The notes under the pieces were generated by a model. It had not been told where the DNA came from and did not search any database. It saw only the letters and a program-made list of their open reading frames with translations. Both the position numbers and the translations under genes were made by a program. From NCBI GenBank assembly GCA_025602905.1, contig JAHLKI010000019.1, positions 186,001 to 250,000 on the forward strand: 64,000 nt of DNA. The letters run 5' to 3'. This DNA is from Phlyctochytrium arcticum (Eukaryota > Chytridiomycota > Chytridiomycetes > Chytridiales > Chytridiaceae). Shown in pieces: positions 1 through 61,155 of this stretch; positions within the stretch are counted from its first letter, which is position 1; every line of letters starts with the position of its first letter.

Positions 1-545
1 ATTCACACAAATCATAAATGAATGCTCATTTCCAAAAACTTGACAAAACGTACCTTTAGTACCCTACCCAGATTCCTCTGCTGATATTCCTGGAACAGGA
101 TGCGGAGACCGAACAAATCATTTCGGACGCCTACAATCGGTTGTGGGCGATGCACCCGAATAGGCCTGAAATCCAAAGCTGCCTCCTCGTCCTTGGTGAG
201 GGGTTATCGGGGTCGTTGAAGAGGCTGTGGGTAGAGGAGGTTAGGAAGGGTGTGACATGGAAAGTGTCTAGTGACCGTGAGGTGATTGGTTCGTGGAACC
301 CGCGCTATTCAAAATCATCAACAAATGCTAATTTCCGAAAACTCGCAAAAACGTACCTTTTAGTGGATGTTATTGCCACAGGATATCGTACTGCCGAGGC
401 CGACACATTGTTTTGGATTCGCACAATGGGTTGCCCGCCTGTGCACCCGAATGGCTCCAAACACGAGATTAGCCTCCTCGTCCTTTGCCCAGGGCTTATC
501 CGCGTGGGGTTGTGTTCGGGTCCCGGGTTTCTGCCCAACGCTTTG
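1..545 (-). repeat. Tandem decayed copies of the SGF73 3' end (left array)
   Basis: Read on the minus strand this stretch repeats the 3' end of SGF73. One remnant of the last exon lies at about 540-395 and a second at about 300-120; the second still reads PLTKDEEAALDF and IRVHRPQPIVG with one interruption. Each is followed directly by a remnant of the end of the preceding exon (about 390-355 and 118-60). A diverged intron beginning GGTACGTTTT comes next (about 355-305, and again at 60-1). The order exon tail, intron, last exon is that of the intact gene at 6056-7452, so whole genomic segments were duplicated. The array runs off the left edge. No unit could encode a complete protein. Confidence 0.75.
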
Positions 546-1626
546 ACCGAACTAAAAGCATGCCGTTCAAAGGTATAGTGTGAGTAGAACCCTTGGAAAA
601 TCTCTCTCTATGCCTGATGGATGTCAGCCTCAAATACAATAATCAAAACCACCAAAATACGGAAGTCATACCTGTCTCGCAACGCACGTCCAGGATAGGT
701 GTTGCTTGCCAGCGATATTACACTTGCAGTTTCGTTCTACTACCAAATCCAAGTCTTCCCAAATCTAGTATCGAAAGTCAGTTCACCTCCACATTACGAA
801 ACACCAAAAATACCCAAATCACACCTGGCTTTCAAAAACCGGTATAAGCAACGGTATCCACGTCACTCCCGTTGTGGTCTTCTTTAGTTTGAGCTCAGGA
901 TCTAGTGGTTGAAGGCAAACGGAAGGTGGCGGTAGATTGCGTTGAAGAGATGGTGAGGATTGAGGTGGGAAGATTCCCGAGATCGCGTGTCGCGCTGGGC
1001 TTTTGCAGTTTTGGCCTTCCGTAGGCTCGGCCTTTCTCGGCCTTAAGCGGCCCCTGGAATCTCATAAAAAAGTCTGCTGGTGCTTTTTCTTGGACAACAT
1101 ACAAATTTTAAAAAAAAAAACTCGTAAAAACAAAAACAGTTGGTACACGTCAAAAGATTTTGTACTGGAATTTTTTTTCCTGTATTTGCTGATGTGTACA
1201 CTGGTAATGTATCAGAAAAAAAGGCTCGGCTCCCATTAGTGTAGAAAATGGTAGAGGGGACCCCGTTTCGCAACAAAAATAATGAATTATACTGACAGAT
1301 GCTTTTTTCGGTCTGACATTGGAGCTTGGAATACAGATTCGCAAAAGTGCGTACCGATAGCTGTTTCTTTTCACTGCGACGCTCAGTGAAACCCCACGAA
1401 GCCTTCAAGCAATCCTCACTCAACCCTTCCAAAAGAACAGTATAAGTGAATACATATTTTTAACCTCTCCTTCTCGGACTGGCAGCATAGGCAAATCGCG
1501 ATACAATCTTTGGCATTATCTTAACATTGTGGGATGGTGTGGTTACGGACTAGGGAACGGTGGGAAGGGGGGGAGGTGGAGGGTGGATGAAGGTGTTGGG
1601 CGTTGAGTACGTAATTTTCCTATAAA
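546..1626. other. Intergenic, no gene supported
   Basis: Only short overlapping open frames of up to 129 codons are present, with no recognisable domain and no splice-linked coding pattern. The minus strand here is the 3' flank of the damaged SGF73 copy. Confidence 0.5.
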
Positions 1627-2932
1627 CTACACAGGCCGCCCCCTCAAGGCGTTTACAAGGGCCTGGCGGCCCTGAAAAGCCCGCAGCATTCTCAACGCCG
1701 AGAAATCGCTCTGGGGGCCAATGATGGGTTGTGGGCGATGGGCACGGATAGCCTCAAATACCAAATCCGCTTCTTCTTCCTTGCTCATAGGTTTCTCGGC
1801 GTTGGGGGTGGGGATGGTGAGGGGCGGCGGTATGAGGGAAGCCCTGCCAGGAAGGGGGGATTTACGACCAACGCCGGCTTTTACGTACATTCAGAAAATG
1901 AGTTTATTTTCTTAAAAAGGAAATCCAACAACTTACCCTTCCCCAGGTAATTCTGCCGGTGCTCTTGAAACAAGAGGTCGTATAGCTGGGACCGTCCGGC
2001 GACACTGCGCTTGGCTCCCACTGAGTGGATCTTACAGGTAATCGAGCGAGTACAGAGGACCCCGGTGTCCCTTCGTACCCCACATTGCTTGTCCAAGTCA
2101 ATGGGCTCAGATGCTATATACAACAAACTTAGTTGCAAGGAAATGAGGTCCCAAAAGAATTAGGTTCTTTACTTTTCTTAGTCCGAGCAACTTTGTTAGG
2201 TCGAGTGACAGGTTCATCCGCGGCGGCCTTTTTGGGCTTGCTGGCTGTCGTTGTTGTGGCGGCGGCGGGTTTCAGTTGAAATGGGGGGTTTGATGGTTTG
2301 TGGCATTTGCCGACAAAGGCGTAACAAAGGTGTTATGATGAGGCTATTTTGCAAAAGAGTACGACTGCCAATGTATACCTAAGGAATCCGAGGTGTCCTT
2401 CTCGGCAACCGGCCTTTTACGTTTCTTGCTGGGAACTGATTGGCTACTGCCTTCTGCTGCTGCCGAGATTTTTTGGTATAACAACACATGTTTCTAAACA
2501 TAAGATCGATTTTAAAAATCACTCATCACACAATTCATAGCCGACAGAACGAAAGATACGTACCGTAATGTTTGGCAAATGCGGTTTGCAATATGACCCG
2601 GTCGCACACCTTACAGGATACGAGGACTGTAGGGTCTGCAGGAGCCATGCCGAAAATGTAGCCGTCCACGGGAGGGGATCCGACTTGGTCGAGCCTCACA
2701 GTGCTTGGACTGATGGTGTTGTGCGTAGTTGTGGGTGAGATGGAAGATGAAGTAGAAGTAGAAGTGCTAGAATGTTCTACTTCAGAAGCAGGTACAGCAA
2801 AAAAAATCAACATTTCGTCAACGTCAAGTTTCCTTGGATAATAAAAAATTGTCGTATATTACCATCTGGCAATCCAAGATTGTCTCGCAATGAAGTCCAC
2901 TTGAGATACTGCTTGCCAATTAAGAGCGACAT
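1627..2932 (-). pseudogene. Damaged SGF73/ataxin-7-like paralogue (copy A)
   Basis: This is a paralogue of the intact gene at 6056-7452, in opposite orientation. Recognisable exons are 2863-2932 (start MSLLIGKQYLKWTSLRDNLG), about 2564-2802 (C2HC zinc finger, CKVCDRV), an exon holding KKRKRP near 2400-2480, 1937-2113 (SCA7 domain, DLDKQCGV and CTRSITCKIHS) and 1627-1877 (C-terminal exon with EEEADLVFEAIRAHRPQPI). Lesions in the middle: the intron-1 acceptor AG is TG, although an in-frame AG lies 18 nt downstream; a run of six A in the third exon shifts the frame into a TAG where five would keep it open; and the acceptor before the fourth exon is missing. The zinc-finger, SCA7 and C-terminal exons remain open. 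It is probably a recent pseudogene, but an alternatively spliced short product or a homopolymer sequencing error cannot be excluded. Confidence 0.7.
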
Positions 2933-6055: not shown

Positions 6056-7452
6056 ATGTCACTGCTTACTGGAAAGCAGCACCTAACGTGGACATCGTTG
6101 CGTGACAGTCTCGGACTCCCTGATGGTAAAACATGACAACCATTTTCTAATATCCAAATGAACCTAATTTTTGATTTTTGTTATAGCTGTACCCGCCCTC
6201 GAAGTAGACGACCCATCATTTTCCATCTCCCCAACAACAACAACAAGCACAACCCACCACACCCACCCAACCCCCAGTCCAGGAACGACAACCCACGACC
6301 AATTCGGGTCTCCCCCCATTGACGCCTACATTTTCGGCATGGCTCCTGCTGACCCTACCGTCCTTGTCTCCTGTAATGTTTGTAGTCGAGTCGTACTGCA
6401 AACGGCGTTTGCCGAGCATTCAAGTACGTATACTTTCCGTCTTTTATATTTATAGAATTCTGTTTTTCTGATGTTTAATGTTTAGAATCATGTTCCGTCA
6501 TCCCAAAAACCGAGACCAAAGCAGCAACACCCTCATCCTCATCATCAACCACCATCAAACTCAATTCCAAGAAGCGTAAAAAGGCTGATGACAGTATATC
6601 CATCACGCATTCCTCGGGTAACACCATATATATCATTCCCCCCCAAAAAAAACATCATTCTCATCATTGTTTTTGCATTAGGCACACCATTTAAGGCTGA
6701 ACGTACCGATAAACCATCATCTTCTTCTTTCGAGTCCCAACCATCCCTCTTTCCACCCGCCTCAACACCCAATAAGATCGAAAAATCCGCCGATAAAGTC
6801 GACAGACCCACCTCCAAAATGTCCAAAGCCGCTCGCAACATCAAAAGTAAAAAAATCCCCCTTCCTTTCTCTTTTCCACACAACTCACACACACTAAACT
6901 CTTTTTTCCAGTCGCTACAGGTCCCATCGACTTGGATAAACAATGTGGAGTCCGATTGGATAATGGGGCGCTGTGTACGCGTTCGATTACATGCAAGATT
7001 CATTCTGTGGGCGCTAAACGGGGGGTTGCGGGACGATCTCAGCAATACGATATATTGTTTCAAGAACATCAACAGCGGAATCTTGGGCGGGCGCTCAAGG
7101 GTACGTTTTTTCGGGGTTTTCATTTAACTTTCAATTTTTTTTTGATATTGTATGTGTGGTAGCTGGGGACCCACGGGCAGGAAACACTCCTCTAAAATCA
7201 TCCATCCCCTCCCGGTCTTCATCCACCTCCAACGTCCCACCCCTTCTCGCCGCATCTACTCCCAACCCCTTTATCGACCCCGAGAAACCACTGACAAAAG
7301 ATGAAGAAGCCGATCTGGTGTTTAGTGCCATAAGGGTACATCGCCCGCAACCCATTGTAGGAGTTCAAAGCGACGTGTCGGCCGTGGGAGTCGTCTGGGC
7401 GTTTAAACGCCGACAAGCTTTGATGAATGCGTTTATGGGACAACCCGTATAG
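6056..7452 (+). CDS. SGF73: Sgf73/ataxin-7-like SAGA deubiquitinase-module subunit
   Basis: Exons 6056-6125, 6187-6423, 6486-6617, 6682-6846, 6912-7100 and 7163-7452 encode 360 aa; all five introns are 61-65 nt GT-AG and all phases agree. A C2HC zinc finger has Cys85, Cys88, His100 and Cys104; the last Cys appears only after the second splice. A basic KKRKK stretch lies near residue 135. The SCA7 domain begins near 207 (DLDKQCGV) with Cys213, Cys223, Cys229 and His232. In yeast and animals this family anchors the Ubp8/USP22 deubiquitinase module in SAGA, with the SCA7 domain contacting nucleosomes. The protein is shorter than yeast Sgf73 (about 650 aa), mostly for lack of long linkers. The start is fixed by the matching 23-residue first exon of the paralogue at 2863-2932. 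Decayed copies of its 3' end follow directly. Confidence 0.88.
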
Positions 7453-7745
7453 TCAATACATACCATTTTATGTTTCAAACCGTCGACCCCAAAAAACCCA
7501 CCTGACAAAAAATGAACTGGTGTTGCCATTGTAAGAAGTTCAAAGCGTGGGAGTCGTATGGCCGCACGACAAGTTTTGGCGAATGCATTTATGGGTATGT
7601 AGTCAATACATACCATTTATGTCGACCCCCACCCACCTGACAAAAAATGAACTGGTGTTTAGTACATCGCCATTGTAAGGAGTTTAAAGCGACTGGGAGT
7701 CGTTTGGCCGCCGATAAGCTTTGATGAATACATTCATGTGTAGTT
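7453..7745 (+). repeat. Two tandem decayed copies of the SGF73 3' end (right array)
   Basis: Immediately after the stop codon the last-exon sequence recurs twice in the same orientation, at about 7487-7619 and 7622-7745. Both copies keep the blocks for a diverged LTKDEEADLVF, the segment around GGAGTCGT, and the AATGCATTTATGGG-type end. Copy 1 also repeats the 3' flank (TAGTCAATACATACCATTT, present after the gene at 7450 and again at 7609). Indels and deletions break the frame in both, so they are non-coding remnants. Confidence 0.8.
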
Positions 7746-7847
7746 TTTCTGAAATCAACCAAATACAACCAAAAACGTGGGAACATTCGCGTTATATACG
7801 TAGTAAAAAAAAGGACAAAATTGACGCAAACACAACATAACGAATAA

Positions 7848-8165
7848 GAAAATTTCATAGAGAATCATTATGGTATTAAAAAAAAACAATGATGAGACAA
7901 GTATTTTCCAAAAAAAAAAAAGTAAAGGAAGCGCAACCCCCTTCCAACTCCCATCTACGTACTCAAATCCTGCTGCACCACCAACTGATAATACAACCCT
8001 CTACCCGCAATCAAACTCTCATGGGTGCCCTGTTCAGCCACTGGGCAATCGCAATGGTAGTACGTCCTTTTGCCGCTTTTATCCAATGCGACTTTGACCG
8101 ATTTTTCTCAAAAGTAGCAAAAGATGAACGTAAAGAAAATTTCATAGAGAATTATATATAAAAAA
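7848..8165 (-). repeat. Decayed tandem copy of the ABC transporter 3' end
   Basis: Bases 7870-8160 duplicate the region 8176-8490, that is the last codons of the transporter plus its 3' flank, in the same orientation. Shared blocks include TCAAATCCTGCTGCA, CTGATAATACAACCCTCT and CAAACTCTCATGGGTGCCCT. The copy lacks roughly 57 bases present in the gene and is out of frame. GAAAATTTCATAGAGAAT occurs at both unit boundaries (about 7849 and 8136), giving a unit of about 290 bp. Confidence 0.85.
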
Positions 8166-8267
8166 AAGAGAGCAAAATGAAAAAAAAAAACAATGATGAG
8201 GAAACAGATTTCAGAGACCATAACAAGTATTTTCCAAAAAAAAAAGAAACACCCCCTCCATCTCCCC

Positions 8268-11200
8268 TTACGTACTCAAATCCTGCTGCACAACCAACTG
8301 ATAATACAACCCTCTCTCCCCAATCAAACTCTCATGGGTGCCCTGTTCGGCCACAACGCCATCCTTGAAGACATAAATCACATCGGCATGTTTGATGGAA
8401 CTCAGACGATGGGCAATGGCAATGGTAGTGCGTCCCTTGGCGGCCTTGTCAAGAGCGACTTGGACGACTTTTTCGGATGTAGCGTCGAGAGCGGACGTGG
8501 CTTCGTCCAAAAGTAGGATTTTGGGGTTTCGGATAAGTGCCCGGGCGATTGCGATGCGTTGTTTTTGGCCGCCAGACATTTGGGTGCCTTTTCCGCCTAG
8601 AGAAGTGTTGTAGCCGTCAGGTAAGGAGACGATAAAGTCGTGGATGTTGGCGTCTTTGGCGGCTTGGATGATAACCTCCTCAGAGGGGGTAGTAGTCAGG
8701 CCGTAGGTAATGTTGTCTTTGATGGAGAGGTTGTAGAGGTTGGGTTCTTGGCCTACGAGGGAGATAAAGTCGCGGAGGTTGGGTAGTGAGAGGGAATTGA
8801 CGGGCTGGCCGTCGACTGTGATGACACCCGAGGATGGGTCATAGAATCGTTCCATGAGTCCAATAGTGGTGGATTTACCGCACCCGGAGGGACCGACTAA
8901 TGCCACAAATTGTCCTGGTTCAACAGTCAAGTTGAGTCCACGCAGGACTTTGATGGTAGGACGGTTAGGATACACGAAATGCACATCCTTGAATTCGACA
9001 CGGCCGCGAATGGTCTCTTTGTTCAATGTCGCGCCCGATGTATCCCAGTTGTCAATCACCGGAACTCTATCCAATAAATCCAGGATATCTACCGCAGAAT
9101 CCCTTGCTTTGCCCACATCCGGCATAAGCGAGAAGACCCGTCCAGCAGCTTGAGACGCGAATACAATCGCCATAAATGTCGTGAAAAAAGTTTTGATGCC
9201 GTCTTCGCCGCCGTATTCGCCAGAGACGATAAGTGACCCGCCGTACCAGAACCCAAGAGCGTTCATCAAAAACGTGACAGTTTGGGAAAAAGCGTAAATG
9301 GCCGTGTTGCCAATCGCATTACGGTGTCCGATGCGTAAAGGTTCTTCTAGATCCCGGTGGTATGCGTCCGCCACATCTTTTTCGCGGGATAAAGCGGCAA
9401 CGGTTCGCATGGATCCGACAGCTTCACAGGCGACTTGGGCAGAGCGTTCATAGAAGATTTTGGTAGCCTGGTTGCCTTTTCGGAGTAGATCCATGCGCCA
9501 TTTGTTGGCGGCAATCATGAGTGGGAGGGTGGCGAGAACGACTAGGCCGAGTTTCCAGCCTGTGACTAGAGCGACAATGGCACCACCGGCGATGGAAGCA
9601 AACAGTTCGAGTAAGTTGCCCGCGATTTGTCCCGACATGTTTTGGACATTCTGAGCGTCGTTGGAGAGATTAGAAGTCAATGCGCCCACGGAATGTTCCT
9701 CAACGTCAAACCAAGCGATATCCTGTCGCATCATACTCCTAAAACTCATATCCCTCAAGCGGGTCGTAAGCCGTTCACCCGAGATTCCAAACATGGCAAA
9801 CTTGATGAAACTCGCAAACAAATTCGCAATCCCAATAATCAAAAACATGAGTGCCCAGAAATTCGCGTCATCCTGTCGGGTAGCGGGTGGGGCAAAAAAG
9901 ACTTTGATAAAGTATCCGAATAGAATGGCGAATACGGGTTGCGTGATGCCGTTGACGATGGCGCCCAGCATGCCCACAGCAATGAAATGACCTTCGGGTT
10001 TGTTGAGTTTCATGATGCGACCGAAAATTTTGAGGGTGTGGAGGTATGAATCTGTTTTGCTCATTTTCTTGGTGCGGGCTGAACGGCCGGATTTGGCGCT
10101 GCGGGCTAGGGAGTGAACGGATCCTTTGCGGGAGAGAGAGTTGATGTCGGTCTTGTTGGGACGCATGGCCATTTCCGTGTGTCCTTCATCTTCTAAATCT
10201 TCTTGGCCGGGGGGTAGGATACGGACCGCGTCAGGATCAATCTTGGGTTTCTTTTGGTTTTCCTCGGCTTCCTTTTTAGCACTGATTTGTTGGGCTTCGA
10301 CTAACCGACGGTAAAAGCCACCTTCCTTGGCCACCAAAGAGTGATGATCGCCCACTTCGACAATCCGGCCTTGATCCATGACGACAATCCGATTGGCTCC
10401 TCGAATCGTAGACAGACGATGAGCAATAACGATCGTGGTTCGGCCCTGGGTAGCCCGATCCAATGCTTCCTGCACGAGTTTTTCCGACTCGGTATCCAAC
10501 GCCGACGTCGCCTCATCCAACAGTAGGATACGTGGGTTCTTGACAATAGCCCGAGCAATCGCAATCCGCTGTTTCTGTCCACCCGACAAAAGCAGTCCGC
10601 GCTCGCCAATCCGAGTCTCGTAGCCAAGTGGTAAAGCCATAATAAAGTTGTGGGCATTGGCAAATTTGCAGGCCTCAACAATCAGTTCCATCTTTTTCTC
10701 CATGTCCAATGATTCTTGAGCGGTTCCTACTAGACCGTGAGCGACGTTTTCTGCGAGAGTGCCCTTGAAGAGAACAGGTTCTTGGGTGACGTAACCGATT
10801 TGCAAGCGGAGCCACTTCAAGTTGAGGTTGGTAATGTCGTTGCCGTCCAAATGAATGGTGCCTGCCTCGGGGTCATAGAATCTCTCGAGGAGTTGGATAA
10901 TGGTGGATTTACCGGATCCCGAACTGCCGACCAAAGCACAGGTTGTGCCCGCATCAATTTCAATCGACATGTCGTGCAAGACGACAACTTCAGGGCGGGA
11001 CGGGTACCGAAACTTGACATTCTTGACGACAATTTTCCCTTCGACACTGGCAGGCTGGAATCCCGCGGGCGAAGCCGAGTCGATTTCGGGGACGCGGTCA
11101 ATGGCTTCAAAGAGAGTGGTTCCCGCTCCAATAGCAAACGAAAAGGCCGTGACTTCACTAGAAGTACCAGCCAAAGCAAAAGCACCAATGAGGACGGAAA

Positions 11201-12491
11201 AGAAACACGTCATGATATCTCCAGGCTGGACTTCATTCGAGTTGAGCATTTTGGCACCGTACCAAAAGGCCAAGGCATAGGTCCCGAAGATGACAAACTG
11301 AATGACACCCCAACCGAGACCCGTCGCAATTTGTTTCTTGATGCCGAGACGTTCGGCGGCGCCCAGCATAGAGTCGTAGCGAATAGACATTTTGGGAGCG
11401 GCCATGAAAGAGGTGACGGTTCGAATCGAGGAAAAGGTTTCTTCGGCGACATCTCCCGCCGCAGCGTATTCCGTGAGTCCCTGACGAGTGTACTTGCCGA
11501 CAAATTTGCCAAGGACGGCGGCCGAGATGCCAATGGCGGGGACACAACACAGTAAAACCAAAGTCAATTTCCAAGAGTGAGAAAAGGCGACGGCGAAACC
11601 GGCGACAAATGTGCTGAAATTCATGAAAAACATGGGCACCTTTTCCGAGATGCCGTCCTGGACCATTTGGGTGTCGGTAATGATGCGCGTCGAGACTTGG
11701 CCGCCTCCGGTATTGTCAAAGTAGGCAATGTTTTGTCGTAGGATGCCTTGGAGGTAGCCTTCCCGGACCCGATGGGAAATGTTTTCACCGGTAAAGAGCC
11801 AAGTGGCCATGTAAATGTAGGTGGCGAAAAACATGGCTATACCGAGGTAGACGAAAATGAGGGCCTTTTCGTTGATGGTGTTTTGCATGCCGTCCTGGTA
11901 GGCTTTGGCTTGGGCGGGGGTGAGGACGGCGTAGTTGACTTGACCGAGTTCACCAAAGGAATTGGTGAGGTCGCCAAAGATGATTGTCATGAGGGGGAGG
12001 ACGGCACCGGCGCCGGATGCGGCCAACAATCCTACAATCATGAGGAGTCGTTCGCCATGGGTCGAGTAGCGAGTGAGGAGGGTCATGTACTTGATGCGAT
12101 TCTTTTTCTCTCCTTTGGTATCTGTTGGTTCACTTAAAGCAGCCGGTCCACCGGCGGTTCCGCGAGTTCCTCCAAAAGCTCCTCCTCCAGAGACGGGCGT
12201 GTCTCCAGTGGGACTTGTCTGATCACTGGTGACAATGGCGATGGATTCGACCAGATCGGATGGATCGCCCATAGCTTGGACGGGAGCAATGCCGGGGACC
12301 ATGTTTGCGGGGGCGGGGCCAGAACGGCGGGAAGCGTTGGAGTTGCGGCGTTCGCGATTGGCATACTCTGGAACTTGGTGGGCCGAGTCGTCGAGTCTTT
12401 CTTGCTGTTCTTGTTCATAGTGGTTGTGGTTGCCTGTAGGTTGAGCAGCGGGAACGACCTCGACCATTTCTTGGCCCGAGGACGATGCCAT
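8268..12491 (-). CDS. ABCB-type full-length multidrug exporter (P-glycoprotein family)
   Basis: A single uninterrupted frame of 1407 aa, unusual here because most neighbours are split by introns. After a disordered N-terminus of about 140 residues come two halves, each with a six-helix membrane domain and a nucleotide-binding domain. NBD1 has Walker A GSSGSGKST near 522, signature LSGGQKQR near 635 and Walker B ILLLDE at 655-660. NBD2 has Walker A GPSGCGKST near 1200, signature MSGGQKQR near 1305 and Walker B near 1325-1330, each followed by an H-loop AHRLS. A charged, Ser/Arg-rich linker lies at about 735-815. The TM-NBD-TM-NBD order and length match the ABCB/MDR family, which pumps hydrophobic compounds or peptides out of the cell using ATP; the actual substrate cannot be read from sequence. 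Every catalytic motif is intact. Confidence 0.93.
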   Translation of the reverse strand: MASSSGQEMVEVVPAAQPTGNHNHYEQEQQERLDDSAHQVPEYANRERRNSNASRRSGPAPANMVPGIAPVQAMGDPSDLVESIAIVTSDQTSPTGDTPVSGGGAFGGTRGTAGGPAALSEPTDTKGEKKNRIKYMTLLTRYSTHGERLLMIVGLLAASGAGAVLPLMTIIFGDLTNSFGELGQVNYAVLTPAQAKAYQDGMQNTINEKALIFVYLGIAMFFATYIYMATWLFTGENISHRVREGYLQGILRQNIAYFDNTGGGQVSTRIITDTQMVQDGISEKVPMFFMNFSTFVAGFAVAFSHSWKLTLVLLCCVPAIGISAAVLGKFVGKYTRQGLTEYAAAGDVAEETFSSIRTVTSFMAAPKMSIRYDSMLGAAERLGIKKQIATGLGWGVIQFVIFGTYALAFWYGAKMLNSNEVQPGDIMTCFFSVLIGAFALAGTSSEVTAFSFAIGAGTTLFEAIDRVPEIDSASPAGFQPASVEGKIVVKNVKFRYPSRPEVVVLHDMSIEIDAGTTCALVGSSGSGKSTIIQLLERFYDPEAGTIHLDGNDITNLNLKWLRLQIGYVTQEPVLFKGTLAENVAHGLVGTAQESLDMEKKMELIVEACKFANAHNFIMALPLGYETRIGERGLLLSGGQKQRIAIARAIVKNPRILLLDEATSALDTESEKLVQEALDRATQGRTTIVIAHRLSTIRGANRIVVMDQGRIVEVGDHHSLVAKEGGFYRRLVEAQQISAKKEAEENQKKPKIDPDAVRILPPGQEDLEDEGHTEMAMRPNKTDINSLSRKGSVHSLARSAKSGRSARTKKMSKTDSYLHTLKIFGRIMKLNKPEGHFIAVGMLGAIVNGITQPVFAILFGYFIKVFFAPPATRQDDANFWALMFLIIGIANLFASFIKFAMFGISGERLTTRLRDMSFRSMMRQDIAWFDVEEHSVGALTSNLSNDAQNVQNMSGQIAGNLLELFASIAGGAIVALVTGWKLGLVVLATLPLMIAANKWRMDLLRKGNQATKIFYERSAQVACEAVGSMRTVAALSREKDVADAYHRDLEEPLRIGHRNAIGNTAIYAFSQTVTFLMNALGFWYGGSLIVSGEYGGEDGIKTFFTTFMAIVFASQAAGRVFSLMPDVGKARDSAVDILDLLDRVPVIDNWDTSGATLNKETIRGRVEFKDVHFVYPNRPTIKVLRGLNLTVEPGQFVALVGPSGCGKSTTIGLMERFYDPSSGVITVDGQPVNSLSLPNLRDFISLVGQEPNLYNLSIKDNITYGLTTTPSEEVIIQAAKDANIHDFIVSLPDGYNTSLGGKGTQMSGGQKQRIAIARALIRNPKILLLDEATSALDATSEKVVQVALDKAAKGRTTIAIAHRLSSIKHADVIYVFKDGVVAEQGTHESLIGERGLYYQLVVQQDLST

Positions 12492-13539
12492 GGTTGTTTC
12501 TTAGTTCTTGGCAGTTGTGGTATCTGAGTTCATTGGAGAGGAGAATGTAAGCATAAAGAAATAAACGGGATGCGCGGAGCAATGCCTCACCTTGTTGGGT
12601 TCTTGGTTCTTGGTTCTTGGCGGGGGTGGGTATCTATGAATGTTCAAAACGGGATGCTGCTGGGATGCGGAAGACGACGAGATGCCCAGCTCTTTCTTAA
12701 ATACGGGCGCTCTTCGGGCCTCGGCAGAATTTTAGCGGCGGAGATGAGAAATCCGCGTCGAATATTCACCCGACTTAGGGTTACTCCTAATGCCCCGGTA
12801 CTCCATAATGTACTTACTGTACGCTCAAACAGCAGCCACTATATGTCCATCTTCATATATGACAGGCAAGCAAGCACCCACCAAAGCAATATGGCTCAAG
12901 GGGCCCTGTGGGTGACTGTGTCTGTGTGAATATGCTCTGTAGATCACCCCACTACGAGTATATATCACGCAGGAGATGTGAGCAGCTAGCTTCCCATGCC
13001 CAAAAGAAACATGTGACCTCTCTGTTCAATCTGTTCCCCTATGGCCTCCCTGATATGATGGCCTCCTGCTCTCTCAGCTCTCAGCCTCTCCTGTCCCTAT
13101 GCTCCCTAAATGCCCTATGCTCCATTGCTCCCTGTAAATGCTCGAGTAATATTATCACAGACCCAAAATAAACGTGGCGCCATTATAGAACATTCCACGG
13201 GTATCGGCTAAACTCGGGGATGCTTACTTCAGCATCTGTGGCGTGGAGCCTTTGGACATCCACCTCACGCGAGAGCTCAGAGCAATGGGAGACCACCACC
13301 GTAATCAAGAACACGGTGAAAACCGGATAGAAGAACCTTGAGGAAGAACGAAAGAGTACCAAAGGATGATGCACTTATACATATTGAAATATTGGAACAT
13401 GTGTGGGGGTTCCTATATCACATCCATATACCGGTGCTTCCTAACACTCTATAGTAAAAAGAATGGGTAAAGAATAAAGGGCGCGGACGATCCATCAGGC
13501 GATGGGTTCTCCCAGAGCAGGAACCTCTGTCTTGACCAT
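12492..13539. other. Intergenic, 5' flank of the ABC transporter
   Basis: No gene supported. Open frames are shorter than 130 codons and without recognisable domains. A small direct repeat of the TTCTTGGTTCTTGG type lies at about 12597-12622, just upstream of the transporter start. Confidence 0.5.
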
Positions 13540-13935
13540 GTCGCGCGTGCATCATCGCTTGGTTTACTACTGGCTTCCGCTGCTGTCGATATTTTAGGTA
13601 CAACCCAAACATGATTCTAAAAACTCAATGTTAACAAGACTTCATCACACAATCCATAGCCGAGATACGTTACCTGAATGTTGGGGAAACATGACCCGGT
13701 CGCACAGACACTAGGACAGTGGGATCCGCAAGAGAGCCATTCCGAATACGTAGTGCGTCCATGGGAATGAAGGCGAGGCTTACAGTGCCTGGACTAAGGG
13801 TGTGGTGGGTGGCTTGGAAGATGAAGTAGTTGTGCTAGAATCGTCTAGATCCAGCTATACAAAAATCAAACATCTCATCAATAAAAGGTCCGCATGGAAA
13901 AGTTAGAGAAGCAAACATACCTCATGGGTCAAGTT
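13540..13935 (-). pseudogene. SGF73 fragment, exons 2-3 region (copy C)
   Basis: On the minus strand this aligns with the middle of SGF73 copy A (about 2430-2830). It keeps the order: remnant of exon 3 (about 13560-13600), the intron ending near 13660, the zinc-finger exon remnant (about 13670-13830, with blocks for GSP, DPTVL and CDRV) and the start of that exon near 13850. Several deletions and stops break the frame. No SCA7 exon follows within the next kilobase, so only the 5' half was copied or kept. Confidence 0.65.
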
Positions 13936-17187: not shown

Positions 17188-17298
17188 GGGAAAAAAAACG
17201 TATTTAGAATTCAATGTAAGAATAACTTATTAAATTATTGAATGGAAAACAAAGAGTGGTGCAAACTATATACATATTTGGTGAATCTGCCCAGGAAA

Positions 17299-28654: not shown

Positions 28655-28768
28655 GGTAGGGATGAGGGTGATACTATCACAGTATTATGAGGGGAATCCG
28701 ACTGCGTAATACTGTACGTAGATGGACGTAGGAAATGTCATTGTCGTAAAGGGTGAGACTATCACCGT
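28655..28768 (-). repeat. Tandem copy of the kelch-A 3' end
   Basis: Just past the stop of kelch gene A, the sequence GGGTGATACTATCAC.GT.TTATGAGGG...CGTAGATGGACGT is repeated at about 28667-28730 and 28750-28815. The ancestral C-terminal codons shared with copies D and E (a QSDSPHNT-like segment) lie beyond the present stop, so the duplication seems to have shortened the frame of gene A. Confidence 0.6.
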
Positions 28769-28769
28769 G

Positions 28770-32525: not shown

Positions 32526-32529
32526 TACT

Positions 32530-32655
32530 TCTGCCATGTATGCAGGCTGTACCGGCCAGCATCGGAATCGCTGCGGGTGCTCGACTCGTCCTGAAGCGTT
32601 CGCGCGGCAGACATGATTATCCTGTAGTATTGGGCAGCAACTGTATTCATACGTG
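32530..32655 (-). repeat. Decayed copy of the 3' end of the 482-aa gene
   Basis: In plus-strand terms GTGCTCGACTCGTCCTGAAG, CGTTCGCGCGGCAGACATGA and the bases around them match 32839-32905 inside the neighbouring gene (GTGCTAGACTCATCCTGAAG, CGTTCGTGCGACAATCATGA). It lies downstream of that gene in the same orientation and is out of frame. Confidence 0.75.
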
Positions 32656-32745
32656 ACTTTCAATCAGAAAAAGGGAACGATTTCTGTCTATATGTACATT
32701 TACTCTTTAGTTGAACAAGAAGTGCGCAGCTGGAGATAGCGCGTG

Positions 32746-46302: not shown

Positions 46303-47188
46303 ATGTCGACAGACAACTATACAGAACACACCATCGGAGGCCTAACCGTCCATTTCCGAGGCCTACAAACTCTTCCTCCCCCTCCCACCCCCCTCCACAT
46401 CCTCTTCTACACCCACGGCCGCACCCAAACCCTCACAAGTCCAACCCAACTCACCCTCCAATCCCATCTCCGCCGGCATCTCCCCCCACACATCCTCCTC
46501 ATCTCACTCGACCAACGCAACCACGGCCACCGCCTCGTCGATCCAAAACGCAACCGGTCCTGGAATGCCGGGAATGGGATGCATGCGCTGGATATGTGGA
46601 GTATCCAGTTTGGGACGGCAAGGGATGTAGGGTTTTTGATGGATGTCGTGGAGGGGTTTTTGGGCCGGAGGGTGAGCAGATGGGGAATGGTGGGTGAGAG
46701 TTTGGGTGGGCATGCTACATTATTGGGATTGGCCAATGGTAAAAACCAAAAAAAACCCATCCCCCACCATTTCATCATTTGTTTATATTGTTTGGTTTGT
46801 AGATGACCGGTTAACGGTAGGCGTATCCTTCATCGGATGTGGAGACTACCTCACCCTCATGAGCGGCCGAGCCCTCAAATCCGATCCGCCCATCACCTTC
46901 TCCCCCGTCTCGGAAACTCACATCAACGCCCAATTCCTCTGCGCCCTCCAAAAATTCGATCCCGTCAACCGCATCGATGCGTTTCGGCATAAACACGTTA
47001 TGCTGTTGGGTGGAGGGGATGATCGGCTTGTTCCCCCTGGTGATAATGACCGGTTTGTGGAAGGATTGAGGAGGGTTATGACGGATGAAGGGCAGTTGGA
47101 AGTGCATGTGGAGGAGGGAGTAGGGCATCAAGTTACGGAAGACATGTTGGGACGTGCAGTCAAGTTTTTGAATAAATTTCTGGCCTAA
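46303..47188 (+). CDS. Alpha/beta hydrolase-fold protein
   Basis: Exons 46303-46738 and 46803-47188 give 273 aa. The frame opens further upstream, but 46303 is the first ATG. The fold is marked by ILFYTHGRTQ (oxyanion region, about 33-42), LISLDQRNHG, the nucleophile elbow GESLGGH with Ser133, an acid at Asp218/219 in GGGDDRLVP and His254 in GVGHQV, in the expected order and spacing. The family includes esterases, lipases and peptidases such as S9-type serine hydrolases; the substrate cannot be told. No signal peptide is evident, so it is probably cytosolic. The intron falls directly after the nucleophile block. Confidence 0.85.
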
Positions 47189-47366
47189 ATTCATCCCCAC
47201 ATCATCGGCAAGGTTTTGTATATAGACATTTTAGAATGAGAGCCCTCAGGCGGGATAATATATGAATTGAAACGAGATCTTTGATGAATAGAAATACAAA
47301 CAGGTAAACGGGTAAAAAAGAAAGGTACAACTTTTCGGATAAAGCAATGCAGCAAACCCAGGTCCC

Positions 47367-49118
47367 TTACAACTTGGCTCCCTTGGGGTAATACCGCATA
47401 GCCTGTCGCACGCCCAAATCGGCCATAATCTCTTCACTCCCGCCCAGAATCGCCGCAAATTTATAAGTACGCTGAAAGCCTTCAACCAAACGGCCCATGC
47501 CTGTACGGGTAATCGCGCGCCCACCAAAGATTTGGCAGGCCTCGTCCGAGACATTGTGGGCGACGCGGGTGCAGCGGAGTTTGAGGAGGGCGATGGGGCC
47601 GCCGAGTTTGATGCTGGCTTCTTGGTAGTCCATGCGGGTCATTTGGTAAGTCAGGTTTTCGAGCCAGTTGTGGACGGCTTCCACTTCCGAAAACTAAAAG
47701 GATAATCATCAGTCAATTGAGTTCAAGAGGCAAAAGAAAGATAGAGAAGGGGATTTTTTACCATGGTGGCGAGCTTGGCCCGAATGACGGCTTGCTCAAT
47801 GAGGGGTTTGCCAAAGACGATGCGCTGCTGGGCCCACTTGAAACATTCTTCAACCGCCAACCGCATGCTCCGCGTGACCGCCGCCACAATAAACCACCGC
47901 TCATGGTTAAAGTTAAACATGATGACCTGGAACCCTTGGCCTTCCTTGCCCAGTACATTCTCCACGGGGACTTTGACATTTTCAAATGTGACATAGCCGG
48001 TTCCGGCCGATGCCGAGTAAGAAGTTTTAATGGCTTTGGTCTCGACACCCTCACAGCGGGGAATGAGCAGCATGGTGACACCGCTGGCACCCTCTCCGGT
48101 GCGCACGGCGGTGGAAAAGTAGTCGGCATTGGTGGAGCAAGTGATCCATTTTTTGTGTCCATTGACAATATAAAATTTCCCACACGCGGATTTTTTGGCA
48201 GTGGTGCGGATGCCCGCGACATCAGAGCCGGCGGTGGATTCGGTAATGGCCAGACAAATCCGTTTTGTGCCGTTCAACACTTCAGTCACGACGCGTTGCT
48301 TGAGCTCCGGACGGGCAAAGTGGAGCACGGGGGGCAGACCAATGACCATACCCGTCGCCAAAGAGTCTTGGTAGCCGGGGGTTCCCAACCCACCAATTTC
48401 CTCATGGGCAATCATTTCGTGAAAGTAGTCAAATTCTTCAGGTTTGACGCCACCGGGCAGAGTTCGTCCCTTCATGTGGGGGCCAGGACCCATGCGGCAG
48501 GCCAACAACCCGAATTGACCCATCTTTTCAAACGTCTCCTTGTCGGCAATCGTGCCAGTCTCTTCGTTGGACAATGCATCAGGCAACAATTCCGTCTGCA
48601 CAAACTCGCGGACAGCCTTGCGGAACGCAAAATGCGACTCCCTTAAAAAAAAACGCAGATTTTAGCCTCCGAGTGAACCATCAAATGTCCATTCTCTGAA
48701 ACTCACTTGTAGTAAGGCGAGTAAAAGCCTTGCCAGGCGGATGGCTCAGCGTAAGGCACTTTGGAGATATCTCCGGGCTTTTGGAGCACAATTTTGGACT
48801 GGACACCCCGGATCGTTCCAATTTCGTATTTGGGACCCAAGCGAAGCAAGACGGATTGGCGATGAAGACCGTAAAATTCACCTGAGATCAAAAAAAAGTT
48901 GGGATTTTTTTTGGCGTCTTTTACTCCAAGACAATCAGTTACGTACGGGTCGAGTCCTTTCCGGCAAAGTCGAGGAGGATGGCGAGACCACCGGGATGCA
49001 TGTCGGCAAAGTTGGTCAAGTCGTAGACGCGACCGTCAATCACCGTCCACAACGAGTCGGCATTGTTGTGGGTGGCGACCTCGTCCATGGAAAACTCCTT
49101 CATTTCCTTTGCGGGCAT
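47367..49118 (-). CDS. Cytochrome b5 / acyl-CoA dehydrogenase fusion
   Basis: Exons 48947-49118, 48707-48881, 47762-48641 and 47367-47693 encode 517 aa. Residues 1-75 are a cytochrome b5 domain: FSMDEVATHNNADSLWTVID, heme ligands His41 in HPGG and His64 in YGLH. From about 115 an acyl-CoA dehydrogenase follows: helical N-domain, FAD-contacting middle domain with CLAITES-type codons read as ICLAITESTAGSDVAG, KKWIT, and a C-domain with AHNVSDEACQIFGGRAITRTG and GGSEEIMADL. ACADs oxidise acyl-CoA alpha-beta bonds and pass electrons from FAD, usually to ETF; the fused b5 suggests a different electron route or an intramolecular relay. Such b5-ACAD fusions are known in fungi. There is no obvious mitochondrial presequence, and the C-terminus lacks a clear SKL-type peroxisomal signal (it ends GAKL). 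Confidence 0.92.
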
Positions 49119-49935
49119 CTTGCTCTAGAGTTTGTTGTTTTGGTGGGGGTTTTCTCGTTGAAAAGTTACGACCAAGATTGCGACGAACGAGGAAAGACCG
49201 CCCCGGTTATGAAGGCCTCTCTCACGAGATGCCGATTCACACGTGTCGCGTGGAACTCGGCTTACGTAATTAGCCGCGCGATGATCAACGCCGCACGAGC
49301 GGAGGATCTTGGGGGCATCATCATCCCGGACATGTTTCCAAAGCGGCACTAATATAAACTCGCTTGCCTGCCCCTGCCTGCCTGCCTGCCTGCCTGATCT
49401 GCAATGAATCTGGAGGCAGCCGGGAGAAATGAGTTATGTCGGGGGGATGTGTATCCTCGGCGGCAGCAAGTGAACGGGGCCGGAGCTACCGCATATAACA
49501 AGCTATAGAGAGAAAACAAATCCATGGTCGAATTAGATCCATCATGCCAGGGGTCGCCATTCTATATAGGATCTCCAGCATGGTACATAGTATATATATA
49601 TAGCAAGGCTGCATCCCCCCCCCCGCTCGAATGAATAAGATATCTGGCCTCTGTGTCTGGGCCCTCTGGGGCTCCGGGGTGGTTGAAGAATCATGCAAGA
49701 CGGACCAGAGACAGAAAGAAAGGAAGCCAGAAGAAGGTTTGGGAAGGCTGGGCATTAGACGCGACGCGTGATCACCGAGCAGCATGACTCAGGCAGGTGG
49801 GCAGGCAGGCAACTAAGCATGACGGCATCGCGCTCGCTCCGGGGTATATAAAGGGCGACCGTCCTCCTTTCTCTCCAGCACACATTCACTCTTTCACACT
49901 TACAAAACTCGAACCCTAAAACCAAAACCAAAACC
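49119..49935. promoter_or_regulatory. Divergent upstream region, b5-ACAD and RTC3
   Basis: An 817-bp gap. It contains a (CCTG)n tetranucleotide repeat at about 49369-49395, a run of Cs near 49616-49624 and a strong TATATAAA at 49845-49852, 84 bp before the RTC3 start. AGGGG (STRE-like) occurs at 49549-49553. No gene is supported. Confidence 0.5.
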
Positions 49936-50392
49936 ATGTCCACCAACAACAAGGCCGTCGCTCCCGTCCGCATCATCTTGCGCGGAAAGCAGAACCCAGA
50001 CAACGAGACGAGCAACGCAAAATCCGCAGAGTACTTTGTCTTTGCCTTGGCCGACCAGGTAACATTCTTGAGAGCGTTGCATTCACACATACACTCCCCA
50101 TACTCACATTCAAATGACACAGGTCGAAAAATGGCGATCAGACAAGTCAATCCCATTGGTCGAGGTCGTCGACTCGTTTGACATTTTCGAAGTCCCCACT
50201 GGCGGCAACACGGGCATGTTTGAACGCCCATCCAAGCAGATCCTTGAAACCTCGTTTGGTACATCAAACCAGGACGAAATCATTCACAAGATTCTGAGCG
50301 AAGGCAAAATCACCAATGCCAGTGACAAGCTCAACAAGGCCAATGGCCCAGGCAACTCTTCTCGTGGTGCCTACCAGGGTCGTGTTGACTAG
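49936..50392 (+). CDS. RTC3: Rtc3/Hgh16-like small protein with SBDS N-terminal fold
   Basis: Exons 49936-50058 and 50123-50392 encode 130 aa (yeast Rtc3/YHR087W is 111). Family features in order: strand VRIILRGKQNPDNE near 11-24, then SAEYFVFALADQVEKWRSDKSI, LVEVVDSFDIFEVPTGGNTG, the conserved helix SKQILETSFGTSNQDEIIHKILSEG and a C-terminal Gly/Asn/Ser-rich tail ending in RGAYQGRVD. The fold is that of the N-terminal domain of the Shwachman-Bodian-Diamond (SBDS) protein; yeast Rtc3 is stress-induced and thought to act in RNA metabolism. A TATA box 84 bp upstream and a long compact 5' leader with AAAACC repeats fit high inducible expression. Three decayed copies of this gene's 3' end occur downstream at about 54.2, 57.1 and 60.7 kb. 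Confidence 0.88.
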
Positions 50393-51660: not shown

Positions 51661-51661
51661 G

Positions 51662-53849: not shown

Positions 53850-53975
53850 GAGGCAGGGTTCTTATGCCTTCTGCCCTGAAAATGTTGAATGCAAATCCCG
53901 TAACGAATGTTCATGTCCAAAGTGTTTCCCGGCAGGATATGAAAGAAGGAAGATGTGAAAAACCAGCGGAAAAGT
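53850..53975 (-). repeat. Inverted-repeat arm right of kelch C
   Basis: Reverse complement of blocks in 51080-51460, including GAAAGAAGGAAGATGTGAAA and the NIRYGICIQHF-coding block. Together the arms flank pseudogene C about 0.2-0.7 kb outside it. Confidence 0.6.
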
Positions 53976-54159
53976 CTCTCAAGGGAAAGAAAAAACTACA
54001 ACATAATGAACATGTCTTATGCGGCAAGCAAAACCTCATCGTTTGATACATCCGAGGTTCATCATCCAGATGTTTTGACAGTCGGCAAAAACCACCCAAA
54101 GATCAAAACGGCCCCAGTTTCTTGATACCACTTACTTACCCATCTACCCCAGTATTCTT

Positions 54160-54240
54160 GAATACACTCCGATTTAATTGAATGCATAGTCAAAACTAGA
54201 ACCTTGCTACATCTTTTGCGAAAGTATCCAGTGTATTCAG
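54160..54240 (+). repeat. Weak RTC3 3'-flank copy 1
   Basis: TTAATTGAATGCATAGTCAA, then a TTTTGCGAAAG block and AGTGTATTCAGGATG parallel the RTC3 3' flank (50476-50530) and, more closely, the copies at 57110-57165 and 60765-60835. It is strongly diverged. Confidence 0.4.
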
Positions 54241-55053
54241 GATGCGTGGAATTCACCGGAGGTGCATAAGTGGATCGACGTATCCCGGGAATACCCGATA
54301 ATAGCTTCACCAGAATTTCTCGGCGTAGATTTCTCAGTTTCGAATACGTTTGAGGTCGCCAAGTATCTCCAACTCTATTTGAAGCAAGATTTTTTACAGC
54401 ATCACTAAAACTGTGTGTCTTTGCCGTCATTCCATTTATTGCCGATGCATACAAAAAACAAGCTGGGGGATAGCCGTCATGGGTCGGCCGGAGTTTTGCC
54501 TGCTCAGGCTCCTCTCAGATCAAGCATATCATATATAAGAACCGGATGTGTAGTACGCTAGTTTTGCGCGAAGCCCTGCCTCCGACGGAGCTAGAGCAAT
54601 TTGCAGGTGATAGTACGATCGGAGATGAAGGTTGTGGTTCTTGTGGACCGTTGTGCTCGACCGTGGGCCCAATTGACAAGTTTCGAAAATTCCGAGAACG
54701 TATGATACATTAAGGGGAAACTGGGAATTAAAAATGTTTGTCGATTAGGGGACTACATGCAGTTTTGGACAAATACTTGATTCAATATTCTGCCTCTGCA
54801 GCTTTTGTTGCATGCATATTTTTTTTTGATCGGGAGGACACAGACGTAGACGTAGATCGCGAGGACTCCGCCCAAGAGTTTTGCGAGGCGAGATCTGGCA
54901 GAAAATGGGCCGCGAGCGGCCAAATCTGTACCTATATATGCTTTCTTCTAATAGTTAAGATTCAAGAATAAGAAAGGCTGATGATTCGGTGTCGCCGTTG
55001 ATTGTTTCGTCGTTAGCAACCGAATACATTTCTCAGCAAGTTCAGCAAAAACC

Positions 55054-56617: not shown

Positions 56618-57319
56618 CAACAAATCGCGAACGGATGTTGAATTTTCCCACGCTTACAGTAGCTATTTTGCAAGGACACTTGTCGGTAGTGTAAATTTTA
56701 GGACCGCTCCTGGACTTCCTCAGCGTTGCTTATCAATAAAACAACTGCTGCCCAAAAATAAACCCGTGCACCATACGTCCAAGCCCAACCTACACACGCA
56801 GTCAAGATTTCTCTGAATACACAATCAAAGTGTCCCACCACACCCGCGGCATGTAGCTATGCATCTTCCTATGGTTTAATCGCTGTATACCGCTACTCGG
56901 AGACCCTTCAAGCGGAAGAAAACAACATGATATACATATCTGTCGGATACAAATGTGGCAACACGGGGGTCAGATACATTAGATTTTGGCTGGGGGCAAA
57001 ATCACCAATGTCAGAGTCGCGTTGATTAGACTTTTTGATACCACTTTGATCATCTCTTACACACACTCACCTACCCCCATCTCCACCTCACAGTATCTAT
57101 TCCGCTTCAGTCAATACATAGTCAAACTCATAATGTGCAATAATTTGCGAGATTTCCCGGCGCAGATTTACGAGGACAAAATTGGGGCAGATCAGTAAGG
57201 GCATATTATTGAAGCGAGAATTCAGCCGGGCAGCCGTCTGTTGAGGTCATGAGCGTTGTTTTTGCACTGGGTCAGACCTACAGACCCAATCGTATCCAGA
57301 AGCGAAGGAATTGACCCGA
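56618..57319. other. Intergenic downstream of kelch D, with RTC3 remnant
   Basis: The kelch 3' flank (to about 56830) followed by the RTC3 3'-end copy at 56985-57165. No gene is supported. Confidence 0.5.
56985..57165 (+). repeat. Decayed RTC3 3'-end copy 2
   Basis: GGGCAAAATCACCAATGTCA, then GAGTCGCGTTGATTAGA, then a CACACACTCACCTACCCCCA stretch and CAATACATAGTCAAACTCAT match the last codons, stop and 3' flank of RTC3 (50305-50510) in order. The coding bases between CAATG(C/T)CAG and GGTCGTGTTGAC are deleted. Same orientation as RTC3. Confidence 0.75.
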
Positions 57320-58659: not shown

Positions 58660-60239
58660 ATGGCAGACATCGAGTCGGGCGAGTCCTGGACCGACGCATC
58701 TTCCATCATCAAAAATGTATGGCAGCTAGCGGATTGCTCCTCCTCCTCTGGTGGATATTCTACCTTTGATGGGACCAGTATGTTGACCTCTTCATCTGCT
58801 CTCTCACAAAACAACAGCTCTCAAATTGATTTTCTACACACACAGCATGGAACACTCTTGTGAGCTGGGACAATGTCAAAGGACTGGCTACCTTCCGAAA
58901 GCAATCACCAAATTCCGGACTCAATGCTAAAAGCATCGCCTTATTCGACAACGTCAATGCTAGGGCGGCTTGTGCCATTCAACAGCGTTACTTAATGGCA
59001 CCCAATGTCAGCGGAAACTGGTTCTGGACGGGCCATACTCTGATAGAGGGGCCACCTCGATCGGGATACACTCTTCTTTCCACCAGCACGCAGATTTGGA
59101 TCATTGGTGGTCAGTTGCAAGGTGCCGGGGGGAACAACACTGTCAAGACAAGTCTAACCAAAATTAGGCCTGACGGTGGCCCAATTCAATTAGCAGAGCT
59201 TCAATGGGCAGACGGCCCGGATCTGCCTTATGCAGTCAATCACACTTCAGCATCTGCGTGGGGTGAAAACGGGGCCGTTCTGTTTGGCGGTCAGAGCGAG
59301 ATGAATCCTGCTCCTCTAATGCGATTGCAGAATAATGTTTGGTCGGCTCTTGAGGCAAAGGGTACCCCACCATCACCTCGACTCTACCCGTGCATCGCAA
59401 CCAGTGCGGCGGCCATGTATGTGTACGGAGGGCGGCCACTAAATGCAACTGCGCAACCCGACCCACTGCTGTATGAATTGAACCTCGAATCACTCACATG
59501 GTCCAACCACAACCTACGCACCACAACCAACACAACCCATCCTGTCTCCATCTCAGATATTTCTTGCCATCTGCCGAACCCTGGCAACCAAGGACCATCG
59601 GGGGCGGGGGCGGCCACCCATTTACACATCATCTCCCAAATATCAACCCCGACATTCAGCGGCCCTGCGCTGCAAGTGGTCGATTTGAACACCAAGACGT
59701 GGCAGCGGATTCATCCCGTGAGGACGACAGTAGTAGGCCCTGTCGCTCAATACATCCCGGAGGACACATCCAAATCTGGTCGGACGTTTGTTACAATTGG
59801 CATTCCTGTCATTGCAGTTCTATTCGGTCTCGCATATGGCCTGAGACGACTTCGAGCATATGGCAAAGTGACTCCAGCCGCCAACCTGAATACAATAACC
59901 ACGCCCGGCCCCGTTCCACCCCCTATCCCGGAATGCCCTCCAATATACGGGCCTAATGACATTGAAATGGGCGACTTGGCCCGTGCCATCCGCGAGTCTG
60001 AAGTTGAACCTACCATACCCACAAACCAAACCTCATTATCTCCCGACATTCCTGCTCACGCGCCACCCTCATATGACGATGTCATTTCCTCCATCGCGGC
60101 GCTACCTGACACCGAGTCTGCACGTCCATCTGCGGACAGTACTGCGCAATCGGATTCCCCTCATAACACCGGGATAGGCCATGATACCTCCCCTTCACTC
60201 ATACCCGCTACTGCTACCACTGATTCCTCACCCCCCTAA
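58660..60239 (+). CDS. Kelch-type single-pass membrane protein with PPxY tail (copy E)
   Basis: Exons 58660-58777 and 58846-60239 over a 68-nt intron give 503 aa, the longest intact member. The N-terminus (MADIESGESWTDASSIIKNV) matches the other copies. Kelch-like repeats follow (IWIIGGQLQGAGG, GAVLFGGQSEMNPAP, MYVYGGRPLNATAQPDPLLY, ELNLESLTWSNHN, VVDLNTKTWQRI), then a hydrophobic helix at about 353-372 (TFVTIGIPVIAVLFGLAYGL), a basic stop-transfer RRLRAYGK, NDIEMGDLARAIRESE and PPSYDDVIS at 446-454. The layout suggests a beta-propeller outside the cytosol and a tail offering a WW-domain ligand to an Rsp5/NEDD4-type ligase. Several NxT/NxS sites (NVSGN, NHTS, NATA, NTTH) would suit a secretory-pathway propeller. 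No signal peptide is visible and ligand or enzymatic activity is unknown. Confidence 0.85.
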
Positions 60240-61155
60240 CACCTTCCCAAAAAAAATAACTGGCATCAAATCGCGGACCGGATGCTAAATTGTCCTTCGG
60301 AATGTACAATAGCTGTGTTGATATTATCCTCAGCGTGAATTCCAACGAAACAACTGGCTTAACCCGGTATCGAGCGCCCAGGCCCGTCTAGACACACAAC
60401 AGAGAAGATTTTCAACAAATACATAAGCAAAATGGTCCACACTCGCCGCATGCATCTTCCTGAGTTCCGAATTTATGCCCCCGGAGAGAGAAAAAATCAT
60501 AAACGTGTCTGTAGGATACGAATGCGGCAACCCGGGGCATACCTGAACGCCAGTACAGGACGCGAAGTCATCATTCAATTTTTGACGGGGGGCAAAATCA
60601 CCAATATGCCAGCAGTGTGACGAGCTCAACAAGGTCAACGATCCAGGAAAGTCTTACCGTGGTGCCTACCAGGGTCCGCGGCGATTAGATGCCTCTGATA
60701 CCTATTACTCACACACATACCCATACCCCCATGACCCATCCCACAATCTTTGTTCATATTCCGCTTCAGTTAATACATAGACAAGACCATAACTGGCCAC
60801 AATTTGCGAAGACATTTTAGTGTATTGATGTCTTGAGTGTGCTCGAAGTCAGAGCCTCCAACAATATTTTCGCACCACGGTCTATAGTCGCGTATGATCG
60901 GGATTCGGGTTTATTGCACTGTGGTATGCCCGATTTCTCATGCCCTGTATTGCCAACGCACACAAAAACAATTTGGAGGTGTTCTGCATTTTTGACTGCT
61001 TCAGTCTCTGGCCTTAATCTGAACTGCGCAGGTGGAAGGAAAAACAGTGTCATTGAGGAAGATCTAATGAAAAGAATACATTTACACTTCTGCGGTCTTG
61101 ACGGATCCCGATAGTATGTATACATGAACAAAAAGACCTCTATGAACTATACATT
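60240..61155. other. Intergenic between kelch E and the S41-like gene, with RTC3 remnant
   Basis: Kelch 3' flank, then the RTC3 3'-end copy (60590-60835), then about 300 bp with a 93-codon frame of no recognisable domain. No gene is supported. Confidence 0.5.
60590..60835 (+). repeat. Decayed RTC3 3'-end copy 3
   Basis: GGCAAAATCACCAATATGCC, GAGCTCAACAAGGTCAACGA, CGTGGTGCCTACCAGGGTC, GATTAGATGCCTCTGATACC, CACACACATACCCATACCCC, then CTTCAGTTAATACATAGACA follow the last 30 codons, stop and 3' flank of RTC3 in order. This is the best preserved of the three copies. Frameshifts near the start and a CCGCGG insertion before the stop make it non-coding. Confidence 0.85.

Follow-up and report, generated by a model that had tools for sequence, protein, structure and literature searches.

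Decayed gene tails in and beside two gene clusters of the chytrid Phlyctochytrium arcticum, probably derived by ordinary partial tandem duplication

Partial tandem gene duplicates are described, in the excerpted text of Katju (2012; PMC3449122), as duplications of part of an open reading frame with a breakpoint within the ORF, which are often lumped with pseudogenes. According to the same excerpt they are frequent in C. elegans and Drosophila and make up about 7% of S. cerevisiae duplicates. For small duplications in Drosophila, the portions of PMC6380325 drawn on here report divergent sites below expectation in 5'UTRs and above expectation in 3'UTRs and coding sequence. These portions also cite Emerson et al. 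2008 for the rarity of 5'UTR partial duplications relative to 3'UTR ones, and suggest stronger constraint. No dedicated 3'-end copying mechanism surfaced in a literature search of partial coverage, made up mostly of titles and abstract openings. The decayed gene tails of the chytrid P. arcticum described below probably belong to a known class, partial tandem gene duplication.

The stretch of DNA analyzed, termed the window, is 64,000 nucleotides long and corresponds to positions 186001-250000 of contig C19, in a genome of 31.5 Mb on 91 contigs; negative coordinates denote C19 sequence to the left of the window. A simple gene finder of our own, working without transcript backing, gave 65 gene models over 260 kb of C19 (about 37% coding), the 3' ends of which are surer than the 5' ends. 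We take two of the genes to be SGF73, based on its SCA7 domain, and RTC3, based on its lone SBDS_N domain. A preliminary description of the window had reported recurrent, diverged copies of 3' ends downstream of at least five unrelated genes. Such tails are real for SGF73-A, SGF73-B, an ABC transporter, a gene of 474/482 aa and RTC3, all of which score above their shuffled controls, while the one assigned to the gene kelch A was not a copy and one of those assigned to RTC3, near 54160, is weak (Table 1). The parents are not five independent, scattered genes. Many of the copies fall in or beside two duplication-prone gene clusters, with SGF73-A, SGF73-B and the ABC transporter in one block and RTC3 and kelch A in another; the 474-aa gene is placed between kelch K1 and K2. 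The tails are indeed worn, as had been claimed, and cover a range of divergence. Because the copies are about 65-94% identical, an assembly artefact is an unlikely source.

Table 1. Parent genes and tail-like features. Coordinates are window positions except where C19 is given.
Feature	Position	Strand	Source or basis
SGF73-A, parent, SCA7-domain gene	1630..2932	-	tblastn with SGF73-B; SCA7 PF08313 match C19:187953-188111
Decayed tandem SGF73 3'-part copies (H, G, part of E), downstream of SGF73-A	1..545	-	alignment
SGF73-A array, piece H	512-398		
SGF73-A array, piece G	398-127		
SGF73-A array, piece E	135 to -275		
SGF73-A array, piece F	-293 to -585		
SGF73-A array, piece D	-610 to -1619		
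SGF73-B, parent	6056..7452	+	gene model; SCA7 by Pfam on hand-completed model
Two decayed SGF73-B 3'-end copies	~7546-7618 and ~7600-7742 (7546..7742)	+	alignment
SGF73 5'-half fragment, residues ~49-133 of SGF73-B	13524..13829	-	match to SGF73-B
ABC transporter, 1407 aa, parent	8268..12491	-	
Copy of last ~216 bp of ABC coding sequence plus 3' flank	7846..8118	-	source 8133-8483
Own colinear 3' end of kelch K1 (kelch A) behind early stop	28655..28768	-	includes second half of ~75-bp internal tandem duplication
Decayed copy of 3' part of 474/482-aa gene	32566..32682	-	source 32824-32939
RTC3-like gene, SBDS_N domain, parent	49936..50392	+	
Weak RTC3-tail-like sequence upstream of kelch K4	54123..54244	+	match to K5 tail
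RTC3 3' fragment downstream of kelch K4	56981..57152	+	alignment
RTC3 3' fragment downstream of kelch K5	60556..60825	+	junction common to K4 and C1 copies

Behind the ABC transporter, copy and source each span the end of the coding sequence together with its 3' flank and lie head to tail. The copy is only about 273 bp long, its tandem partner begins 3-15 bp beyond its end, and the best tail score of 273.7 compares with a maximum of 58.9 in 200 shuffles. A genome search with 7453-8260 as the query returned only local matches among those listed, from a search that scores its best candidates only. For the 474/482-aa gene, which has 474 aa in our model, the copy lies about 63-180 bp past the stop and scores 80.5 against a shuffle maximum of 45.3 (200 shuffles); no second locus appeared among the genome matches listed.

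The tails behind SGF73-A form an array that begins about 1.1 kb beyond the gene and runs from position 512 leftward to about -1619, past the window edge. Its segment limits were set by hand from the matches and are accurate to within some tens of bases. In SGF73-B coordinates, the starts of pieces G, E, F and D fall at 7038, 7006, 7029 and 6995, all within about 45 bp, while G, E and F end at 7364, 7446 and 7303. The intron is retained in piece E, where the alignment passes through it. Over 433 and 205 columns, which span the intron and continue past the stop, piece D matches SGF73-A at 82% identity; the 433-column stretch crosses the intron unbroken. Since the intron is kept in the array, the SGF73-A tails are DNA-level copies and not retrocopies. 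In 200 shuffles each, the best score of the array (209.4) compares with a maximum of 67.1, and that of the SGF73-B tails (161.3) with 45.3. Longer SGF73 paralogs are also present, namely A, B and a more decayed C, and part of the 5'-half fragment (13559-13765) matches -5908..-5705 at 76%. The SCA7/SGF73 loci look like one local, rearranged gene array, because the four SCA7 matches listed for the genome all fall within C19:180460-193081 (12.6 kb), in mixed orientation and with fragments between them.

The RTC3 copies lie 6.6-10 kb from RTC3, inside an array of kelch genes. The two tails, aligned at 57012-57152 and 60556-60825, score 98 and 203, against shuffle maxima of 44 and 45 (200 shuffles). 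For the weak copy near 54160, the match to the K5 tail scores 59 against 43, and the best match to RTC3 itself, at 54025-54113, scores 50 against 41. A third RTC3 fragment is found behind a kelch gene on another contig, C1, its match starting at RTC3 position 50205, and a four-way alignment showed that the K4, K5 and C1 copies are mutually alignable on both sides of the start of RTC3 similarity. No match to RTC3 49900-50300 above shuffles was detected next to K4 or K5. Since both tails share their junction with the C1 copy, they look like the product of a single founding event carried by the kelch array. On the simplest reading of these alignments, one founding tandem duplication would have had its left end within RTC3 and its right end past a kelch gene, and would then have spread with the kelch family.

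The supposed tail copy of kelch A proved to be the gene's own colinear 3' end past an early stop at 28770, plus a small internal duplication. Sequence beyond that stop lines up colinearly with the 3' ends seen in the four remaining kelch paralogs, and the internal tandem duplication of about 75 bp (28767-28840 / 28682-28755; 44 versus 26 in 50 shuffles) spans the stop. Five kelch paralogs occupy window positions 28770-60295 (K1 -, K2 +, K3 -, K4 +, K5 +), and more kelch copies lie on C1 near 1.17 Mb, one of them with an RTC3 fragment after it. A direct repeat spaced by 122 bp is located at 51079-51274, between the convergent RTC3 and K3, and has an inverted copy near 53.9 kb (53902-53967). An S41 peptidase at 61156-64023, whose best ten named homologs come from P. 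arcticum at 57-75% identity, perhaps belongs to an expanded family; an in-frame tandem repeat of 93 bp is present close to its N-terminus.

That tails are seen only downstream is uninformative on mechanism, because simple tandem duplication forces an orphan tail to lie downstream and an orphan head upstream. The proper test is therefore the rate of tails versus heads, both set against noncoding repeats. Direct repeats were sought without reference to annotation in 1.6-kb frames over 310 kb (260 kb of C19 and 50 kb of C1). Scores of at least 70 occurred in 89 of 767 overlapping frames, as opposed to 1 of 767 unrelated-pair controls. From 42 raw events, 11 with z below 8 or reached by a shuffle were dropped, and the remaining 31 were merged into 22 robust events: 11 noncoding (one being the SGF73-A array), 5 tails, 1 head and 5 both-gene events, in which each copy falls in a gene. 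Direct repeats free of coding sequence are about twice as common as tails among them. For classification and rotation, three genes were added by hand (SGF73-A, 46303-47188 and K2) and the model at 46811..49118 was omitted, and hence also a dehydrogenase-like gene at 47.4-49.1 kb. An apparent tail at 46410-47224 was recounted as both-gene because its model had absorbed the + strand reading frame at 46303-47188, which was read by eye as a hydrolase and whose first part (46303-46806) lacks any Pfam match. The count also excludes repeats at 30999-32660 and 40613-41289 (p 0.10-0.36).

The 17 non-internal events were rotated along the contigs, rotations that left fewer than 6 events not being used. 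Over all 310 kb, discovery window included, the observed tails number 5, or 4 under the strictest gene set, against a rotation mean of 1.1-1.4 (p 0.006-0.023); the single head, against a mean of 1.1-1.5, represents no excess. The hold-out, consisting of about 245 kb outside the window, yielded 2 tails, one of them tentative (1 with the strictest gene set), against 0.7-1.0 (p 0.19-0.53), and 1 ambiguous head (also 1 with the strictest gene set) against 0.7-1.0 expected. Recurrence of tails extends slightly past the window in this way: the solid case follows another ABC transporter (C19:-145236..-140980), the C-terminal part of which has Pfam ABC domains, and the tentative one follows a low-scoring model with no Pfam match (C1:41313..42264). 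The reported lack of 5'-end copies stands inside the window, where no orphan head was found of any gene other than SGF73, and is weakened by the ambiguous head in the hold-out. The strongest core of this head (C1 5544-5591 versus 6492-6542) lies upstream of the start of a helicase-like gene. That gene, at bases 6649-11823 of the 50-kb C1 stretch, matches AAA_30 and viral helicase 1 and may be a mobile element; the interval separating it from its divergent neighbour contains a repeated promoter-like core. Elsewhere in the C1 stretch, at 22232-23802, 204-bp direct repeats that are 83% identical and about 1.2 kb apart flank a low-scoring reading frame. Direct repeats of 41 bp with about 98% identity occur as pairs on C19 at -54789/-51275 and in the C1 stretch at 23959/25309.

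Gap-tolerant alignment of head, mid and tail segments was applied to 64 of 68 models plus SGF73-A, four being left out as short or too near an end. Under the loosest scoring, tails reached z >4 only for the ABC transporter, SGF73-A and the 474-aa gene. The tails of SGF73-B, C1:41313 and C19:-145236 rank first only under stricter scorings, where chance alone should yield about one first rank in each category. Strong matches in the head and mid categories are tandem paralogs (models at -103114 and -126519). Plain blastn tests of heads and tails covered 51 of 53 C19 models (2 were too short) and later 57 C19 and 11 C1 models. They under-detected tails, giving nothing for C1:41313 and 26 bp only for C19:-145236, both of which were apparent by gap-tolerant alignment; an early blastn reading of no recurrence outside the window was overturned by these two alignments.

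Direct repeats lean toward the 3' side of genes. Under the two looser gene sets, the nearest gene boundary is a 3' end for 15 of 17 non-internal events, where about 48-50% would be expected (p ~0.01 by rotation), and for 10 of 12 in the hold-out (p 0.05-0.06). The strictest gene set lowers the counts to 13 of 17 (p 0.07) overall and 8 of 12 (p 0.27) in the hold-out. Noncoding events taken separately fall on the 3' side in 10 of 11 cases (base 48%, p 0.004), or in 9 of 12 with stricter models (p 0.07); outside the window the counts are 8 of 9, or 7 of 10. Measured from the modelled gene end, the ten 3'-side noncoding events are spread over distances of 8 to about 3200 bp that show no evident peak. 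What survives of the 3' bias sensed earlier is a modest, gene-model-dependent lean of direct repeats, not significant with the strictest gene models, that includes repeats without coding sequence.

The tails very likely arose as ordinary partial tandem duplications at the DNA level, followed by decay and growth of arrays. A segment reaching from inside a gene to past its stop would be duplicated head to tail, probably by unequal exchange or template switching; the first copy would leave the gene intact, and the second would become an orphan tail downstream and decay. Some units may have been amplified further, like the SGF73-A tails, or carried by an expanding neighbour array, like the RTC3 tails among the kelch genes. 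Marks of duplication are seen in the common orientation of the copies, their mostly adjacent position, the several units that span stop and 3' flank, and the shared junctions. A breakpoint inside the ORF is found for ABC, SGF73-A, SGF73-B, the 474-aa gene and RTC3, and adjacent, head-to-tail copies in the same orientation for ABC, SGF73-B, the 474-aa gene and within the SGF73-A tail array. Copying of DNA is indicated by the 3' flank kept in the ABC, SGF73 D and RTC3 copies and by the intron kept in SGF73 E and D; no intron position falls within the copied ABC and RTC3 stretches. Counted against ordinary duplication are the tail excess over 310 kb, a figure that includes the discovery window, and the noncoding 3' lean. 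Selection may eliminate the majority of 5'-side duplications, which would disturb promoters, and the mild 3' lean is what such selection would produce.

A dedicated copying process coupled to 3' ends, as the preliminary description proposed, finds no support: the downstream position follows from geometry, several cases come from the SGF73 and kelch arrays, and the excess of tails in the hold-out is not significant. A mutational process linked to 3' ends or to convergent transcription, in which collision, R-loops or terminator template switching preferentially makes short tandem duplications there, is improbable. The lean under the two looser gene sets, including that of the hold-out, speaks for it, but the lean loses significance under the strictest models, the noncoding events show no evident peak near gene ends, and selection on promoters predicts the same asymmetry. 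Slightly less probable still is the more general proposition that, in P. arcticum, a process linked to transcription ends favours short tandem duplications on the 3' side and so seeds decayed tails and 3'-flank repeats genome-wide.

The retention of 3' parts alone is also what would be expected of 5'-truncated retrocopies, in which a reverse-transcribed mRNA retains just its 3' end. This origin is highly improbable: it is contradicted for SGF73 by the last intron in tail copies E and D (the intron is not informative for the other genes), the copies are mostly tandem, adjacent and in the parent's orientation, and no poly(A) tract in gene orientation was seen by eye after the ABC and RTC3 copies. 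There is only a small chance that the tails are remnants of complete tandem paralogs, the 5' portions of which are no longer recognizable after decay. Longer paralogs do exist in both clusters (SGF73 A, B and the decayed C; kelch K1-K5), yet pieces G, E, F and D begin almost together, the RTC3 copies share a junction, RTC3 49900-50300 has no match above shuffles beside K4 or K5, the C1 match begins at 50205, and the short ABC copy is followed almost at once by its tandem partner.

Under partial tandem duplication, tail fragments beside genes need no special copying machinery, and tandem geometry suffices for their downstream position. Plain BLAST can overlook tails of this age, C1:41313 and C19:-145236 being two examples. 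The residual 3'-side lean poses a question that is cheaply testable by gap-tolerant scans of whole fungal genomes; if it proved mutational, duplication would be tied to transcription ends.

The chytrid tails resemble the partial tandem gene duplicates of PMC3449122, as far as its excerpted text describes them, in being segments with a breakpoint inside the ORF. They differ from the cases in that text in that the copies are short (about 100-400 bp) and old and several lie in or beside two gene arrays. With the Drosophila duplications, in the portions of PMC6380325 cited above, they share the asymmetry of small duplications between 5' and 3' sides. Those portions, unlike the chytrid case, concern polymorphism data with many events in which coding sequence is over-represented too, whereas the tails described here come from one genome and represent few events and older copies.
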